A stretch of 33,398 bases of DNA, from assembly GCA_903920315.1 (NCBI GenBank), contig CAIXLU010000568.1:1-33398 (forward strand). The letters run 5' to 3'. The position numbers and the translations under genes are program-made. This DNA comes from an uncultured Oscillochloris sp. Its GTDB lineage: Bacteria > Chloroflexota > Chloroflexia > Chloroflexales > Chloroflexaceae. Below the pieces are notes generated by a model. That model was not told the DNA's origin. It was given only the letters and a program-made list of their open reading frames with translations, and searched no databases. Below, piece after piece: positions 426 to 30,302 of the stretch (its first letter is position 1; each line of letters starts with the position of its first letter).

Positions 426-2441
426 TCAGCTTGGCGTAATCTGCGCGAGCCGATCCACCACCTGCGCCTCCAGGCGTGTAATCGTCTGACGAAGATCCTG
501 CTCGCGGGTGGCGATCTGCGTGAGTGAGTCCTCCAGTTGGCCGAGGGTTGTCACATAACGCTTGCGCAGAGTTCCCTCATCACCCTCACGACCGAGGGGC
601 TGGATATTGCCCTGGATCTGGCGCTGCTGCTTGTAGATCGCCTCACGCTCCTGCTCGATCTGCCGCAGGCCGGCCTGAGCCACCTCAATTTGGCGGTAGA
701 GATCCAGCACTTCCTCAAGAACCTTCCCGACCGTGGCATCGAGCAGACCGCCACGCAGCAGATCCTTCAGCCGTGGGCCGGTCAGTCCACGCACTTGCTC
801 CTGACGACTCACCAGCCGCCGCTCGGTGACGGCAAACTTCGTCCGGGCCTGTGCCGGACACGCCACCCGCCAGCGGGCGAAACCGGCGCTCTCCTCGTCG
901 GGGGCGCGAGTATCGGCCAGTTCATAGTGGGCCAGGCGCGACTGCTCGATCATCACATCGGCGGGACGATCCAGCCCGCTCACCAGATCATAGTTGCGAA
1001 TGCGCAGGTCGTATTCTTCATACACCAGAAACTCGTTGCGGATATGCACCGTGCGCAGGCGGCGCTCGCTGCGGCTCTGCTCATTCACCGTGATCCCCAA
1101 CTCCACGGCGTAGGGCACAATCAGCTCGCCGCCGGCCCGCGTGAACGAAAGCACCGCCTCACCCGCATAGTCACCCGCGTCAAGCACCGTCACCGGACCG
1201 CGCTCCAGAGTCAGGCCGGTCTCGTTAGTCAGCCGCAGGGATGCCACCGGGTGCGCCGGCAGCTTGGCCTGATTGTAGAGAAGATCGCGGCGGGCGGGCA
1301 GGCGTCGGCTGACAATCGGCACCATCGCCGACTGGCCACGGGCCACGCTGACCGGGTGGCCGACGTGGTAGGCGAACAGGGCACCGCGATCATCGCCCGC
1401 AACGCTGCTGACCTCCACCGACTCCTCGACATCACGGAGCGAGAAGGAGGCGGCTTTGCTCGATCTAACCGCAGCGGGCGCGGGTGGGGGCGCTGCTGCC
1501 GCGATACCGAAGGACAACATATCGGAGGCTGGGGGGGCCTGGGGTGCGGCATCAAAGAAGATCGGCGCGCCCACCGTGCGCTCCTCATCCTCAACCAGCG
1601 GTCGCTCCGGCGTGTGCGGCTCATAGAGCCGATAGCGGAACGAGATCGGCATCCCAGCCACCAGGGTGAGATCCACGCCCTCCAGATCCTCATCAAGCTG
1701 GTTATCAAAGATACCCCAGCCTTGCAGGAGGACAAAGGATGAAGGCAGAGGGATGAAGGATGAAACTTCCTGCCCATCTGACTGCGCAGGTTCATCCTTC
1801 ATCCTTCCACCTTCATCCTTCTCCTCAAACAGCAGCCGGTAACTCACCCGCCATGCCGGGGCCGGGGCGATGTAGCCAATCAGCAGATCGTGGTCGCCGG
1901 GGCTGAGGTGGATGGTCGCGCTACGACGATCCTCCTCGCTCTGGGCGGTTTTCAGGAAGTAGCCCAGGTCGGCGGCTGCTGCGTCATCAAGGATGTCTAC
2001 GCGGGCCAGTTCGGTCAGAGGTAGAGAACATACTTGGCGCGTCTCCGCATCATAGAGCGACACCATTGCTCGGTGCAACGGCTCGTTCTCCTCGTAGTCC
2101 ACCCCAACGATCAGACCCTCAAGCGTAATCTCACCCTCAATATCGAGTACCAGCCGCACCCGGCGACCGCGCAGGTCGCGTAGCAGATCGAGCATACTCT
2201 GCCGGTCGGAGAGATGGATACTGCCGCGCTCAAGCATCGCCGCACGATCTTCAGGCGTCTCAAAATCAATGCTCTGCACCTGGCCCGCGCCCAGATCCAG
2301 GGCCACCAAACTCTTCAGCACATCATCCATCGCCTCGCGAGCGAAGGTGAGTCGTAGGCTCTCGCCGCTCAGCGGCCCGCGCCGCTCGAAATAGCCCACC
2401 CCATGCTTATAAACCGTGATTCGACTGATCGGCAGAGACAT
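426..2441 (-). CDS. DUF4139 / mucoidy-inhibitor A-like protein
   Basis: The 671-residue protein has the layout of DUF4139 (MuiA-like) proteins. An N-terminal region starts MSLPISRITVYKHGVGYFER, a beta-rich middle includes WRVSYRLL, LLQGWGIFDN and a DLEGVDLTLVAGMPISFRY-like stretch, followed by a PVSVARGQSAMVPI segment, and a predicted coiled coil lies near residues 575-665. There is no signal peptide, so a cytoplasmic location is likely. The biochemical role of the family is not established. Two insertions stand out. Residues near 205-238 (KDEGGRMKDE... to SSFIPLPSSF) are encoded by an inverted pair of GGATGAA heptamers placed between two conserved strands. An Ala/Pro-rich linker (AAAAPPPAPAA) lies near 312-325. 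The ATG is preceded by AAAGGAG at good spacing. It is probably the first gene of an operon with the small membrane protein. Confidence 0.8.
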   Translation of the reverse strand: MSLPISRITVYKHGVGYFERRGPLSGESLRLTFAREAMDDVLKSLVALDLGAGQVQSIDFETPEDRAAMLERGSIHLSDRQSMLDLLRDLRGRRVRLVLDIEGEITLEGLIVGVDYEENEPLHRAMVSLYDAETRQVCSLPLTELARVDILDDAAAADLGYFLKTAQSEEDRRSATIHLSPGDHDLLIGYIAPAPAWRVSYRLLFEEKDEGGRMKDEPAQSDGQEVSSFIPLPSSFVLLQGWGIFDNQLDEDLEGVDLTLVAGMPISFRYRLYEPHTPERPLVEDEERTVGAPIFFDAAPQAPPASDMLSFGIAAAAPPPAPAAVRSSKAASFSLRDVEESVEVSSVAGDDRGALFAYHVGHPVSVARGQSAMVPIVSRRLPARRDLLYNQAKLPAHPVASLRLTNETGLTLERGPVTVLDAGDYAGEAVLSFTRAGGELIVPYAVELGITVNEQSRSERRLRTVHIRNEFLVYEEYDLRIRNYDLVSGLDRPADVMIEQSRLAHYELADTRAPDEESAGFARWRVACPAQARTKFAVTERRLVSRQEQVRGLTGPRLKDLLRGGLLDATVGKVLEEVLDLYRQIEVAQAGLRQIEQEREAIYKQQRQIQGNIQPLGREGDEGTLRKRYVTTLGQLEDSLTQIATREQDLRQTITRLEAQVVDRLAQITPS
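1735..1823. repeat. inverted pair of GGATGAA heptamer arrays inside a coding region
   Basis: On the plus strand the left arm (1735-1765) reads AAAGGATGAAGGCAGAGGGA then TGAAGGATGAAA. The right arm (1791-1823) carries the complementary TTCATCC units. About 25 bp separate the arms. The whole segment is in frame within the DUF4139 gene and encodes roughly 33 extra residues between conserved strands. It uses the same unit as the array at 20218-20294. Confidence 0.85.
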
Positions 2442-6181: not shown

Positions 6182-6262
6182 GGATTTTGGATTTTGGATT
6201 TTGGATTTTGGATTGACAGAGGTGCTGCAATCGGCAATCTACAACCTACAATCCGTAATCAT
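6182..6262. repeat. two heptamer arrays: GGATTTT x4 and a degenerate GCAATCT-like set
   Basis: At 6182-6209 there are four perfect GGATTTT units plus GGATT. At about 6228-6262 a second, degenerate run reads GCAATCG, GCAATCT, ACAACCT, ACAATCC, GTAATCA. Together they fill the whole gap between the argB stop and the Crp/Fnr start, so the regulator's leader consists of repeats. Confidence 0.85.
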
Positions 6263-14836: not shown

Positions 14837-14911
14837 GCTTTGCCAGCATAGGGACGGCCCGAGGCCGCCCACAAGGTCGCATTATAGCCCAACGAATCCG
14901 CCCGCGCAATA

Positions 14912-14969
14912 GGGAGGAAGGATGAGGGATGAGGGACGCCTCATCCTTTCTCCCTCATCCCTCATCCCT
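14912..14969. repeat. inverted GGATGAG heptamer arrays at the ilvE stop codon
   Basis: The left arm has GGATGAG, GGATGAG, GGA (14920-14936). The right arm is the complementary TCCCTCATCCCTCATCCCT (14951-14969). The right arm runs into the ilvE stop codon (14968-14970). The hairpin could also act as the ilvE terminator. Confidence 0.85.
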
Positions 14970-15894
14970 ACGCATGAGCATATTCAAGCCAGCCGTGGGA
15001 ATTCTCACGCTCGCCATGGACAATGGCGAAGAAGATCGCCTGCACCTCGGCGGTAATCGGGCCGCGCCGACCCTTGCCCACCGTGATGCGATCCACCGAG
15101 CGGATCGGCGAGACCTCGGCGGCGGTGCCGGTGAAGAAGAGTTCATCGGCCACGTAAAGCATCTCGCGTGGGACGATCTGCTGGCGCACTTCCACACCCA
15201 TCTCGCCCAGCAAGGTAATCACCGTGTCGCGGGTAATCCCGCTCAGGATGGACGAACTGGCTGGCGGCGTGTAGACCACGCCGTCGCGAACGAGGAAGAG
15301 GTTCTCGCCGCTGCCTTCGCTGACATGACCATTGCTGTCGAGGGCGATACCCTCAGAGTAGCCGTTGGCCAACGCCTCCATCTTGATCAGTTGCGAGTTC
15401 ATGTAGTTGCCGCCAGCCTTTGACATCGCTGGCAGGGTGTTGGGCGAAAAGCGGTTCCACGACGAGACGCAGACATCCACGCCGTTCTCCATGGCGTCGG
15501 CACCCAGATACTTACCCCACTCAATTGTGGCAATTGCCACCTCAACCGGGTTGCCGTGCGGGTTCACGCCGATCTCACCGTAGCCCCGGTAGACCACCGG
15601 GCGGATGTAGCCAGCCCGCAGCTTGTTCGCCTGCACCGTCTCCTTGACGGCCGCCACCATCTGATCAAGCGAGTAGGGAATCTCGGTGCGGTAAATCTTC
15701 GCCGAGTCCACCAGCCGACGCATGTGCGGCGTCAGCCGGAAGATCGCCGTGCCCTTGGGTGTCTCGTAGCAGCGGATACCCTCAAAGAAACTTGTGCCGT
15801 AGTGAACCACATGCGAGAGCACATGGATCGTCGCTTTGTCCCACGCAACCAGTTCGCCATTAAACCAGATATAGTCCATTTTCGCGATTGGCAT
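14968..15894 (-). CDS. ilvE: branched-chain amino acid aminotransferase
   Basis: The 308-residue class IV (fold type IV) PLP enzyme carries out the last step of valine, leucine and isoleucine synthesis with glutamate as amino donor. It starts near [28 protein letters not shown] contains the substrate-gate region, [15 protein letters not shown] the PLP phosphate region, [13 protein letters not shown] the PLP lysine (Lys159), and [14 protein letters not shown] the family signature. [18 protein letters not shown] closes the active site. Length and motifs agree with IlvE rather than D-amino acid or aminodeoxychorismate relatives. The first ATG has AAGG at 8 bp. It appears monocistronic. Confidence 0.95.
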
Positions 15895-18655: not shown

Positions 18656-18681
18656 TCTATCACGCTGAGCGAAGCGAGAGT

Positions 18682-18734
18682 CTTTGCGCCTTTGCGTCAA
18701 ACGTATGATGATGATGTGACGCAAAGACGCAAAG
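18682..18734. repeat. inverted CGCAAAG repeat
   Basis: The 18 bp arms CTTTGCGCCTTTGCGTCA (18682-18699) and TGACGCAAAGACGCAAAG (18717-18734) differ at one position and enclose 17 bp. They are preceded at 18661 by CACGCTGAGCGAAGCGAGAG, a fragment related to the repeats at 2654-2842. The structure sits just after the isopentenyl phosphate kinase stop and may end that transcript. Confidence 0.8.
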
Positions 18735-18823
18735 AAAACGAAGACAGCGTGACTTCTGCGGTAGGACAAGGTTCGCAGATACTTTACAGTTCAGGCCGGA
18801 ATGTGGCATCGTGATGCGCTCGA

Positions 18824-18855
18824 CCTGAAACCTGAAACCTCACACCTGAAACCTT
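18824..18855. repeat. CCTGAAA heptamer array
   Basis: CCTGAAA, CCTGAAA, CCTCACA, CCTGAAA, CCTTA at exact 7 bp spacing, ending 14 bp before the stop codon of the large membrane protein gene. Same family as 4273-4303 and 5457-5477. Confidence 0.85.
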
Positions 18856-18868
18856 ATCTAGTGCGTAA

Positions 18869-20923
18869 TTACGGCAGCAGCCGGATCGACTCCACTGTTA
18901 CCCCTCCGCCATCCCCTGCCCCCACCGGGTCAAGGCGCAGCCCGCTGACCCGACTGCCCCAGCCCGATACACCGCGCAGATCCAGGCGGTAGGTGTGCAT
19001 TGCTGGGCCGGGCTGGAGTGTAACGCGCAGCGAGCGATCTTCGCTGGCCTGTCCATCCGCATCGAGAAAGAAGATTTGGGCATCGCGGGCTGTCGTGGAC
19101 GCCGCTATTCGCAGTTCGATTGCACTGTAGCGCGAAACATCAATCGTGAGGGGTGGGCTGCGCAGCGACGGGTCGGCCCCTGGGGTCAGCACCCATCCGG
19201 CGGCGCTCTTGTCCGTCGGGCCGATATTCTCTCCCCGCCAGCCCCACGCGCCGCGCCGAAAGTCCCAGCCAACACCGTCGGCCAGTTCCTGGGACGGGGC
19301 GATGCGGCGATAGTCGGGAAGTCCCGGCCCAAGGCGCGCCACCTGAAACATCGGAGAAAGCGGCGCATAGCAGTCCGCCACCTGGTCAGGTGTCAGCCGG
19401 AAGCGCTCCATCATTGACGGTGGCTCGCCAACGGGCGCAGGGTTGGGCCGCAGCGCGTCGCCCACGGCAACAACCGCGTAGCCACTAGACAGAGCCAATT
19501 CCACCCGCCCGCGCAGAGTGCCGCATGCCGCAGGCCAATCGCTGCCACTGGCCGTCATCGCCTGAGTCAGCGAAATCACACTCTCACGACCCGCGTAGTA
19601 GGGCAGGTAGAGTTCGAGCAGGCCATCGGGCACCACCAGCAGGTCGCCGGGCGCGCTCTTGGTCGCCAGGGCATTGGTCATCTGCCGCTGCAAGTCGGTT
19701 GATTCATCGCCGCGCTGATGAATCGCGCTTATGTTGATGCCGAACATGGCGAGCCCAAGTACGAACAGAGCAACAACTGACCACCGACCTCCCGCATTCT
19801 GTCCCGACACTGCTAAGAGAATCAGAAGGTAAAAGGGTGGCAGACTCGCAATCCAGAACTCGATATTGCTTGGCTCCCACCAGAGAAAGAACGCCCCGTA
19901 AGTCAGCAGCCAGGCCAGCAGTACCCAGGTCAGGCCACGTGGCGCAGATCGCAGGCCACGTAGATTAACGATCAGAACAACCAACAGCCCAAGTGGTAGA
20001 ATCTCCCAGCCCGGTGGAGTTACTGCCGTACTCAGCCCTACGCCCAATCCGGCAATCTTCGATCCGTCCACCGTCCCGCCCCACCACCCCGTCCGAGCAT
20101 AGCCCTCCATCCACGCCGATAGCTCGGCCCAACTACGGAACCCGCTCACCCCCAAGCCAACCCACAAGTAGGAACCACCAACAATCAGGGCAAGGGGCAG
20201 GAGGTAGGCGGGGAGCAGGATGAAGGATGAAGGATGAAGGATGAAGGATGAAGGATGAAGGATGAAGGATGAAGGATGAAGGATGAAGGATGAAGATCGA
20301 CTCCCTCCTCCTTCATCCCTCCTCCCTCCTGCCAACAACGCCACCGCCACCGGCACGCTCAGCAGCACGTTCGTCTGGTGGAAGAGGACAGCGAAACCCT
20401 GGGCGAGACCAAGGGCTGCAGCCAGGGCGAGGGATGGGCGATGCAGGAGATCACTCAGCAGTGCGAGGGCGAGAATCAGGAAGAGACAGGCAATCGTGTA
20501 GACCTCAACCTCGACGGCGTAGTACCAGAAAGCGTAACTCGATCCAAGCAGGAGCGCCCCAACGACAGACAGATCAACCCGACCTGTGGCCCGTCGCACC
20601 ACCCCGGCGAAGATTGTCACACCAACGGCCCCGGCCAAGGCGTTAGTCGTCTGGATGAGCAGGGCCGCACTGCCGCGCCAGCCAAACAACAAGGCGACAG
20701 CGCGCAGCAAGGCACCCAGGGGGCCATAGGCCAGGTGATGCGGGTGAAACAGCTCGGGCCAGGGTTTGCGATCAATATCAAGGATGTACGAGAGCGCATC
20801 AAAGGTGTGAACCTGGGTGAGGGTGAGTAGGTAAAGACCAAGGCAGCAGGCAACGGGTAACAGGAAACCGACAACAAGCTCCCTATTCCCTATTCCCCGT
20901 TTCCTGTTCTCTGGTGCATTCAC
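18869..20923 (-). CDS. large polytopic membrane protein with a C-terminal carbohydrate-binding-like domain
   Basis: The 684-residue protein has about ten membrane helices in its first ~400 residues and a soluble end. The start resembles GT-C/DUF2723-type proteins: ALSYILDIDRKPWPELFHPH then HLAYGPLG puts acidic and His residues in the first outside loop. A beta-rich module near 545-684 (DVSRYSAIELRIAASTTARD) suggests a galactose-binding-like fold. A lipid-linked sugar transferase role is an inference. Residues near 205-235 (SSFILHP repeated about four times) are encoded by the GGATGAA array, and the first ~30 codons by a degenerate heptamer run. It begins at a GTG overlapping the DUF192 stop by 4 bp (GTGA), so translation is coupled. 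Confidence 0.75.
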   Translation of the reverse strand: MNAPENRKRGIGNRELVVGFLLPVACCLGLYLLTLTQVHTFDALSYILDIDRKPWPELFHPHHLAYGPLGALLRAVALLFGWRGSAALLIQTTNALAGAVGVTIFAGVVRRATGRVDLSVVGALLLGSSYAFWYYAVEVEVYTIACLFLILALALLSDLLHRPSLALAAALGLAQGFAVLFHQTNVLLSVPVAVALLAGGRRDEGGGSRSSSFILHPSSFILHPSSFILHPSSFILLPAYLLPLALIVGGSYLWVGLGVSGFRSWAELSAWMEGYARTGWWGGTVDGSKIAGLGVGLSTAVTPPGWEILPLGLLVVLIVNLRGLRSAPRGLTWVLLAWLLTYGAFFLWWEPSNIEFWIASLPPFYLLILLAVSGQNAGGRWSVVALFVLGLAMFGINISAIHQRGDESTDLQRQMTNALATKSAPGDLLVVPDGLLELYLPYYAGRESVISLTQAMTASGSDWPAACGTLRGRVELALSSGYAVVAVGDALRPNPAPVGEPPSMMERFRLTPDQVADCYAPLSPMFQVARLGPGLPDYRRIAPSQELADGVGWDFRRGAWGWRGENIGPTDKSAAGWVLTPGADPSLRSPPLTIDVSRYSAIELRIAASTTARDAQIFFLDADGQASEDRSLRVTLQPGPAMHTYRLDLRGVSGWGSRVSGLRLDPVGAGDGGGVTVESIRLLP
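20218..20294. repeat. GGATGAA x11 perfect tandem array inside a coding region
   Basis: Eleven perfect 7 bp units (77 bp), followed by partly related CCTCCTCCTTCATCCCTCCT. Read on the minus strand it encodes the heptapeptide SSFILHP in every frame, without stops. Because 7 is not a multiple of 3, gain or loss of one or two units shifts the frame of the membrane protein downstream of the array; three units restore it. Confidence 0.95.
20840..20909. repeat. degenerate heptamer run over the N-terminus of the membrane protein
   Basis: Ten consecutive 7 bp units can be read: AAGGCAG, CAGGCAA, CGGGTAA, CAGGAAA, CCGACAA, CAAGCTC, CCTATTC, CCTATTC, CCCGTTT, CCTGTTC. They encode the first ~28 residues (NRKRGIGNREL and the first membrane helix VVGFLLPVACCLG). 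Confidence 0.7.
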
Positions 20924-30101: not shown

Positions 30102-30252
30102 AGGAGACCTCCCTTGAAGCATGGAGTATGGACAAGAACGCAGAGGGCGGGTTATAGCGTACTACTCAGCATCATAGAAGCCGGACAATGGGAGGCCGAT
30201 CCTCCCACCGCCCGGCCCATGATAGCCCATATCCACCTATTAATCCAGATCC

Positions 30253-30302
30253 GTAGGGGCGGTTCGCGAGCCGCGTAGGGGCGGCTCGCGAGCCGCCCCT
30301 AC
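30253..30302. repeat. GTAGGGGCGG dispersed palindrome
   Basis: A 20 bp unit GTAGGGGCGGTTCGCGAGCC (30253-30272) is followed by a perfect 28 bp palindrome (30275-30302; half-site GTAGGGGCGGCTCG). It sits 9 bp after the tadG stop on the minus strand, where it could act as a terminator or processing hairpin. This sequence type is a common dispersed repeat in several phyla. Confidence 0.9.

Follow-up and report, generated by a model that had tools for sequence, protein, structure and literature searches.

Among the longer simple repeats of many bacterial genomes, no class is more abundant than the heptanucleotide repeats, and the sets described lie mainly in intergenic DNA (PMC4692102, PMC4679880). 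Examples of such LSSR/STRR families come from Calothrix and Nostoc and include GGGAATC in Xanthomonas, GGGGA(C/T)T in Nostoc, and TAACTGA in Beggiatoaceae (PMC4692102, PMC4679880). According to the same two papers, Mrazek et al. 2007 proposed that the choice of 7 bp is linked to how much DNA the polymerase holds. Repeats that enter genes in frame are represented by the Rickettsia palindromic elements (RPEs) of Ogata et al., which, in the description given in PMC10969869, form families of approximately 150 bp with a conserved sequence and peptide and are found in frame in unrelated genes. Slippage contingency loci form another related class and include the heptanucleotide repeats of Haemophilus influenzae HMW1A (PMC8262952; reviewed in PMC11868660). 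In addition, inverted repeats with arms that are kept or made identical occur in translated genes, both as the mitochondrial coding palindromes of Nematomorpha (PMC6649704) and in yeast (PMC8604942). Template switching between inverted repeats has been reported in yeast coding genes (PMC8604942), and template switching has also been reported for RNA hairpins (PMC8794818). Among the papers available for searching, none described in-frame palindromes of heptamers from bacteria or Chloroflexi.

The window analyzed here, a stretch of 33,398 nucleotides from an uncultured Oscillochloris genome (G000), carries a heptanucleotide array within a glycosyltransferase gene (Table 1). This genome falls in the Oscillochloris group of Chloroflexales, and its closest named relatives are Candidatus Oscillochloris fontis, strains ZM16-3 and ZM17-4, and other uncultured Oscillochloris genomes. 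A preliminary description of this DNA reported eleven perfect GGATGAA units at 20218-20294, and both TRF and the sequence itself bear this out. Its further statement that the array is open in all frames and always encodes SSFILHP holds for the gene strand, on which the unit TTCATCC has no stop in any phase and yields (SSFILHP)n; on the plus strand, TGA is met in every frame. Successive 7-bp units fall into each of the three frames in turn, so that the stop-free orientation encodes one short peptide in any phase. The stop-prone arm, where it is translated, consists of interrupted units such as RMKDEGG. The focal array is not a product of chance, and Markov-1 resampled sequence contained no period-7 runs of its kind. 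Dozens of arrays in this genome, the focal one included, share this unit: two GGATGAA units in tandem were matched 85 times (overlapping matches) and a reversed control pattern was matched 0 times.

Table 1. Coordinates of the glycosyltransferase gene, the parts of its repeat element, and the other palindromic elements in the window.
Feature	Position	Strand	Basis
Host gene; ArnT/PMT-like GT-C membrane glycosyltransferase with C-terminal beta-sandwich, 684 aa, GTG start	18869..20923	-	Pfam, AlphaFold, Foldseek, relatives
Expanded arm, (TTCATCC)11.3 on the gene strand, (GGATGAA)11.3 on the plus strand; encodes SSFILHP repeats, ~residues 210-236	20217..20295	-	TRF (period 7, 100% matches)
Opposite degenerate arm and spacer, gene strand GGCAGGAGGGAGGAGGGATGAAGGAGGAGGGAGTCGATC; pairs with the TTCATCC array and 20196-20217	20295..20333	-	Sequence; DNA fold
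Distal flank, gene strand TGCTCCCCGCCTACCTCCTGCC; closes the outer stem with the opposite arm	20196..20217	-	DNA fold
Second palindromic element, in frame in gene 426-2441 (KDEGGRMKDE...SSFIPLPSSF), balanced arms	1735..1825	-	TRF; fold z = -10.2
Gene that contains this second element; 671 aa, without a match in Pfam or NCBIfam	426..2441	-	ORF list, profile searches
Third palindrome, AGGGATG / CCTCATC, 3' end of gene 14968-15894(-)	14911..14969	.	TRF

Assignment of the host protein is based on a Pfam PMT_2 match at residues 72-200 (E=4.3e-6) and on an AlphaFold model, built from 25 orthologs with a mean pLDDT of 87, for which Foldseek matched ArnT (5f15, E=1e-6) and other GT-C enzymes and found the C-terminal beta-sandwich to resemble carbohydrate-binding modules. 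Matches to the host gene were present in 40 of the 41 genomes searched, its own genome counted, with the closest relative showing 78% identity across residues 20-684. Since the 449 codons past the array are conserved, the gene is read through the array in its true frame. The model falls below a pLDDT of 50 only at residues 1-10 and 205-223, the latter stretch sitting between helices 183-199 and 231-259, and an alignment of 25 proteins showed no invariant column from P191 to Y240. The array was absent from all 35 relatives that could be aligned across the loop, four of them of the same genus, and some of these relatives carry other insertions in what is a length-variable loop. Given this absence and the low pLDDT and variability of the loop, the insert is lineage specific and lies in a disordered, dispensable loop. 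As a separate observation, the ortholog in strain ZM16-3 (G005; L025/L044) is broken near residue 370 into two parts in different frames; the break does not coincide with a heptamer array in the focal position and may be a real frameshift or a sequencing error.

The effect of slippage was modeled by in silico translation of the host gene with the number of units changed. Eleven units give the 684-residue protein. Ten and 13 units give products of 243 and 250 residues, with a stop 10 residues past the array, and 9 and 12 units give 258 and 265 residues, with a stop 28 residues past it; the full protein is kept with 8 units (677 residues) or 14 units (691 residues). A slip of one or two units thus leaves 10 or 28 residues downstream of the array, compared with 449 normally, in agreement with the earlier claim that gain or loss of a single unit shifts the frame of some 450 codons. 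The DNA around the array fits a palindrome in which the array, at 11 units, is the expanded right arm and faces a short degenerate one, with GGCAGGAGG/CCTCCTGCC as the outer stem in the fold. None of 200 shuffles was equally stable (z = -2.9), and the hairpin is modest because the element is lopsided, with eleven units facing one short degenerate arm.

The focal array belongs to a much larger set of repeats. In 76 kb of contigs from this genome that were not chosen for repeats, we found 30 period-7 runs, compared with 0 at periods 2-6, 1 at period 8, and 6 at period 14, and resampled sequence gave 0 period-7 runs. Among the other genomes, G004, of the same genus, had 12 period-7 runs in 44 kb and 5 at period 6; G030 had 6 in 100 kb; and none was found in 77 kb of G002 or in 100 kb of the order-level relative G025. 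GGATGAA in at least 3 tandem copies occurred in 16 of the 41 genomes, these genome-wide counts resting on contig samples and pattern searches. The unit families of this genome comprise many different heptamers that have only the period of 7 in common. Tandem and dispersed 7-bp units enriched over other periods are thus found here, as in the heptanucleotide LSSR/STRR families. Loss of mismatch repair was considered as a cause and rejected: MutS was matched in all 25 of 25 genomes, 24 of them over the cut-off, and in array-rich G000 and array-poor G002 alike.

Many of these arrays lie in frame within genes. A simple codon model trained on G000, with a frame recovery of 87% in that genome and less in G004, placed 25 of 99 G000 array clusters in coding sequence on both flanks, in one frame, and open through the array, in a sample of loci that, for this count and for the palindrome counts below, were mostly chosen for containing GGATGAA arrays; the model did not itself call the focal site. 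Many of the remaining clusters in this GGATGAA-biased sample lie at gene edges. In-frame hosts over the profile cut-off in G000 are mfd (TIGR00580), dnaE (NF004226, TIGR00594), and mnmG (TIGR00136), and other hosts code for a glycosyltransferase, an aminotransferase, an AMP-binding (MenE-like) protein, a BTAD/AAA regulator, and an Eco57I-type methylase. The GIDA match of the mnmG product is split by the insert, with the first part ending at residue 240 and the TIGR00136 match restarting at 292. Elements are thus found both between genes and in frame within them, and the in-gene cases compared lie in linkers or variable loops. The eight cases classified as having differing frames and the three classified as having a stop were inspected, and since all are gene junctions, no surveyed in-gene array splits its gene into two frames. 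Sister genomes also carry in-frame arrays, including one in mutS of G003. This TTCATCC/AGGCGGC element (L088, 1586-1680) constitutes a slippage-prone repeat within a mismatch-repair gene.

A second property of the family is mirror symmetry. With an inverted partner defined as a reverse-complement match within 100 bp of at least 12/14 positions in G000 and at least 13/14 in G004, partners were found for 36 of 86 arrays in G000, compared with 10.3 when flanks were shuffled, and for 49 of 86 in G004, compared with 5.8. The excess was not significant in the small unbiased G000 set (4 of 21, against a shuffled mean of 1.8 and maximum of 5) or in G003 (12 of 24 against 10.4). Hairpins predicted for the linkers had z values of -3.4 to -10.2 and MFE values down to -101 kcal/mol.

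Comparison between species, which covered six linkers and the second element of the window, showed that the arms at shared linkers often differ in sequence among sister species, are complementary within each, and preserve the reading frame. One mfd linker holds GGATGAA/TTCATCC in G000 and G004 and GGGCTGA/TCAGCCC in G001; the mnmG linker holds GGATTGT/ACAATCC in G000 and TTGAATG/CATTCAA in G004 and G005; and the glycosyltransferase linker holds GGATGAA-type arms in G000 and GGAGTCA/TGACTCC in G005. The mean left/right arm-match score was 19.9 within species versus 9.3 across species, with 0 of 2000 permutations as high, for sequences cut by hand around visible repeats and with unit-sharing species pairs retained, which works against the difference. 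G002 has no palindrome at a shared linker, nor do G001 and G004 at the glycosyltransferase site. At the second element, the G003 insert is identical in DNA and the G004 insert has a different right arm. The G003 copy is unchanged while the flanking coding DNA differs, for which recent conversion, transfer, and DNA-level constraint are candidate explanations. A further observation concerns G001, in which units near 8 bp (such as GAGTCACC) stand where its sisters have 7-bp units (L166, the mfd 3' linker; L214; L218), including a 357-nt stretch inside mfd.

Several known systems share features with these elements. Heptanucleotide LSSR/STRR are likewise short, dispersed 7-bp tandem arrays, some inverted and a few within open reading frames. 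However, the published families lie mainly between genes, whereas many arrays here are in frame, core genes included, and the arms here are complementary and covary between species. Like RPEs, they are palindromic repeats in frame in unrelated genes that add a peptide to the protein. The conserved sequence of approximately 150 bp is not found, however; only the heptamer unit is common, and lengths and units vary even at one site, so that, set against RPEs as they are described in PMC10969869, the elements here have a 7-bp unit, a variable length, and a sequence that differs between sister species at a single site. The heptamer elements therefore combine features of heptanucleotide repeats and RPEs and yet are not RPEs. 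The Nematomorpha and yeast inverted repeats likewise lie in translated genes and have arms kept or made identical, but those arms encode conserved protein or are short and nonrepetitive, whereas here they are tandem heptamers in variable bacterial linkers.

We consider it probable that these are in-frame palindromic heptamer repeats that grow by slippage, have arms homogenized probably by template switching in the hairpin, and are filtered for reading frame, with the focal array as an expanded right arm. The elements, built as (heptamer)n - short spacer - (reverse-complement heptamer)m, form a large family in Oscillochloris-type genomes. Replication slippage would add or remove units, template switching within the hairpin (quasipalindrome correction) would homogenize the two arms, and selection at the protein level would purge versions that break the frame. 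Template switching is suggested by the complementarity of the arms, with no single event seen between close strains. The lopsided focal element with its modest hairpin speaks against this reading, as do the length of its array and the surface-glycan type of the host enzyme. In the focal gene, a lineage-specific element occupies a dispensable loop between two helices of the GT-C glycosyltransferase, and the loss of protein that a one-unit slip would cause is more likely a passenger's cost than a selected switch. Because the focal array belongs to a genome-wide family of mirror-image heptamers that lie in frame in the loops and linkers of many genes, those for DNA polymerase and DNA repair among them, it looks less like an on/off switch built for that purpose than like a passenger that the gene tolerates. 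A bolder version, plausible and put forward here tentatively, is that these are self-copying coding palindromes: slippage in one arm, followed by hairpin template switching into the other, would renew the symmetry, the stop-free unit that gives one peptide in all phases would allow linkers to be colonized in any frame, and linkers in core proteins, DNA polymerase and Mfd among them, would be continually rewritten in this genus.

The preliminary description read the array as a candidate phase-variation switch with the logic of contingency loci. On such a reading, slippage of the 11-unit array would toggle the glycosyltransferase, and the switch would be under selection, perhaps as a means of changing a surface glycan in response to phage or grazers. 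The locus does resemble such systems, in that a perfect repeat with a unit that is not a multiple of 3 lies within a reading frame and, at a surface-related gene, the number of units in a short perfect array could determine expression or frame. In the translation model, a change of one or two units in either direction truncates the product to ~240-265 aa and three units restore it. Furthermore, the host is an ArnT-like membrane glycosyltransferase of the surface-glycan type that adjoins a Tad-pilus-like gene cluster (read from ORFs), and its array is longer than every other classified in-gene GGATGAA array, which reach 62 bp. Copy number would therefore set the frame, as had been claimed, but the idea of a dedicated switch fared poorly. 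The array is not retained at the focal locus in any of the 35 aligned relatives, and, unlike in contingency loci, the family is not restricted to surface or variable-trait genes: membrane genes are only part of the hosts, which also include dnaE, mfd, mnmG, metabolic genes, and mutS of G003. No OFF-state gene was seen at any of the in-gene arrays surveyed, the frame changes being gene boundaries, and ON/OFF expression of the focal gene is a prediction from translation. Multiples of three units, which the preliminary description had held to speak against a switch, are what separates the orthologous in-gene arrays that could be compared, at other loci of the family and between sister species: the mfd arrays of G000 and G004 differ by a net 6 units (42 bp) and the mnmG arrays of G000 and G001 by a net 3 units (21 bp), the frame being kept in both. 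A selected switch at this locus is accordingly quite unlikely, and, in genomes of this kind, a 7-bp array within a surface gene should not on its own be taken to indicate phase variation.

Alternatively, the repeats could be mobile palindromic elements, MITE- or RPE-like units placed by a transposase, with the heptamer arms as internal sequence. Speaking for such elements are the inverted arms, the scatter of copies in either orientation, their in-frame fusion to unrelated genes, which recalls the Rickettsia elements, and the presence or absence at the focal site. Yet there is no single consensus, one linker holds unrelated heptamers in different species, no fixed ends or length were seen, and the many heptamer families have only the period of 7 in common, all of which makes a transposed unit unlikely, if still worth keeping in mind. 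We would give a similarly small chance to a selected hairpin, that is, an mRNA or cruciform structure kept for function, such as translation pausing between domains, mRNA stability, or a nucleoid-protein site. Such a role is consistent with the very stable stems predicted in coding sequence (MFE to -101 kcal/mol), the covarying arms, their frequent positions between domains, and the second element, the DNA of which is identical in two species; however, the palindrome is missing from a shared linker in G002 and, at the glycosyltransferase site, in G001 and G004, the focal element folds weakly, and template switching without selection would also yield covarying arms. An assembly or read artifact is highly improbable. 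The genome is a draft of 716 contigs, but the 79 bp of the array are shorter than a usual short read, and similar features recur in several independent genomes, orthologous linkers included. Nor do arrays appear to break the assembly, as they were found at 2 of 38 contig starts and in 1 of 38 cases for a control stretch close by, which is no enrichment.

Palindromic heptamer repeats of the kind proposed here would have consequences beyond the focal gene. Extrapolation from one run per 2.5 kb gives approximately two thousand slippage-prone non-triplet repeats per genome, which raises the question of how a genome with such repeats, some of them in core genes, keeps its reading frames. In such a system, replication slippage, template switching, linker evolution, and the reason for the period of 7 could be studied under natural conditions.

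Other repeats were noted in the window. Another heptamer family, (GGATTTT)4.7 at 6182-6214, spans the region in which the ORF of a CRP/FNR-like regulator starts; it would put SKIQNPKSKIRN near the N terminus of the regulator. The intergenic stretch at 18660-18860 contains inverted GACGCAAA 8-bp repeats beside (ACCTGAA)4.6. Finally, a 22-bp self-complementary unit, CGTAGGGGCGGCTCGCGAGCCG, is present twice at 30252-30296, between two large genes, and is REP-like.
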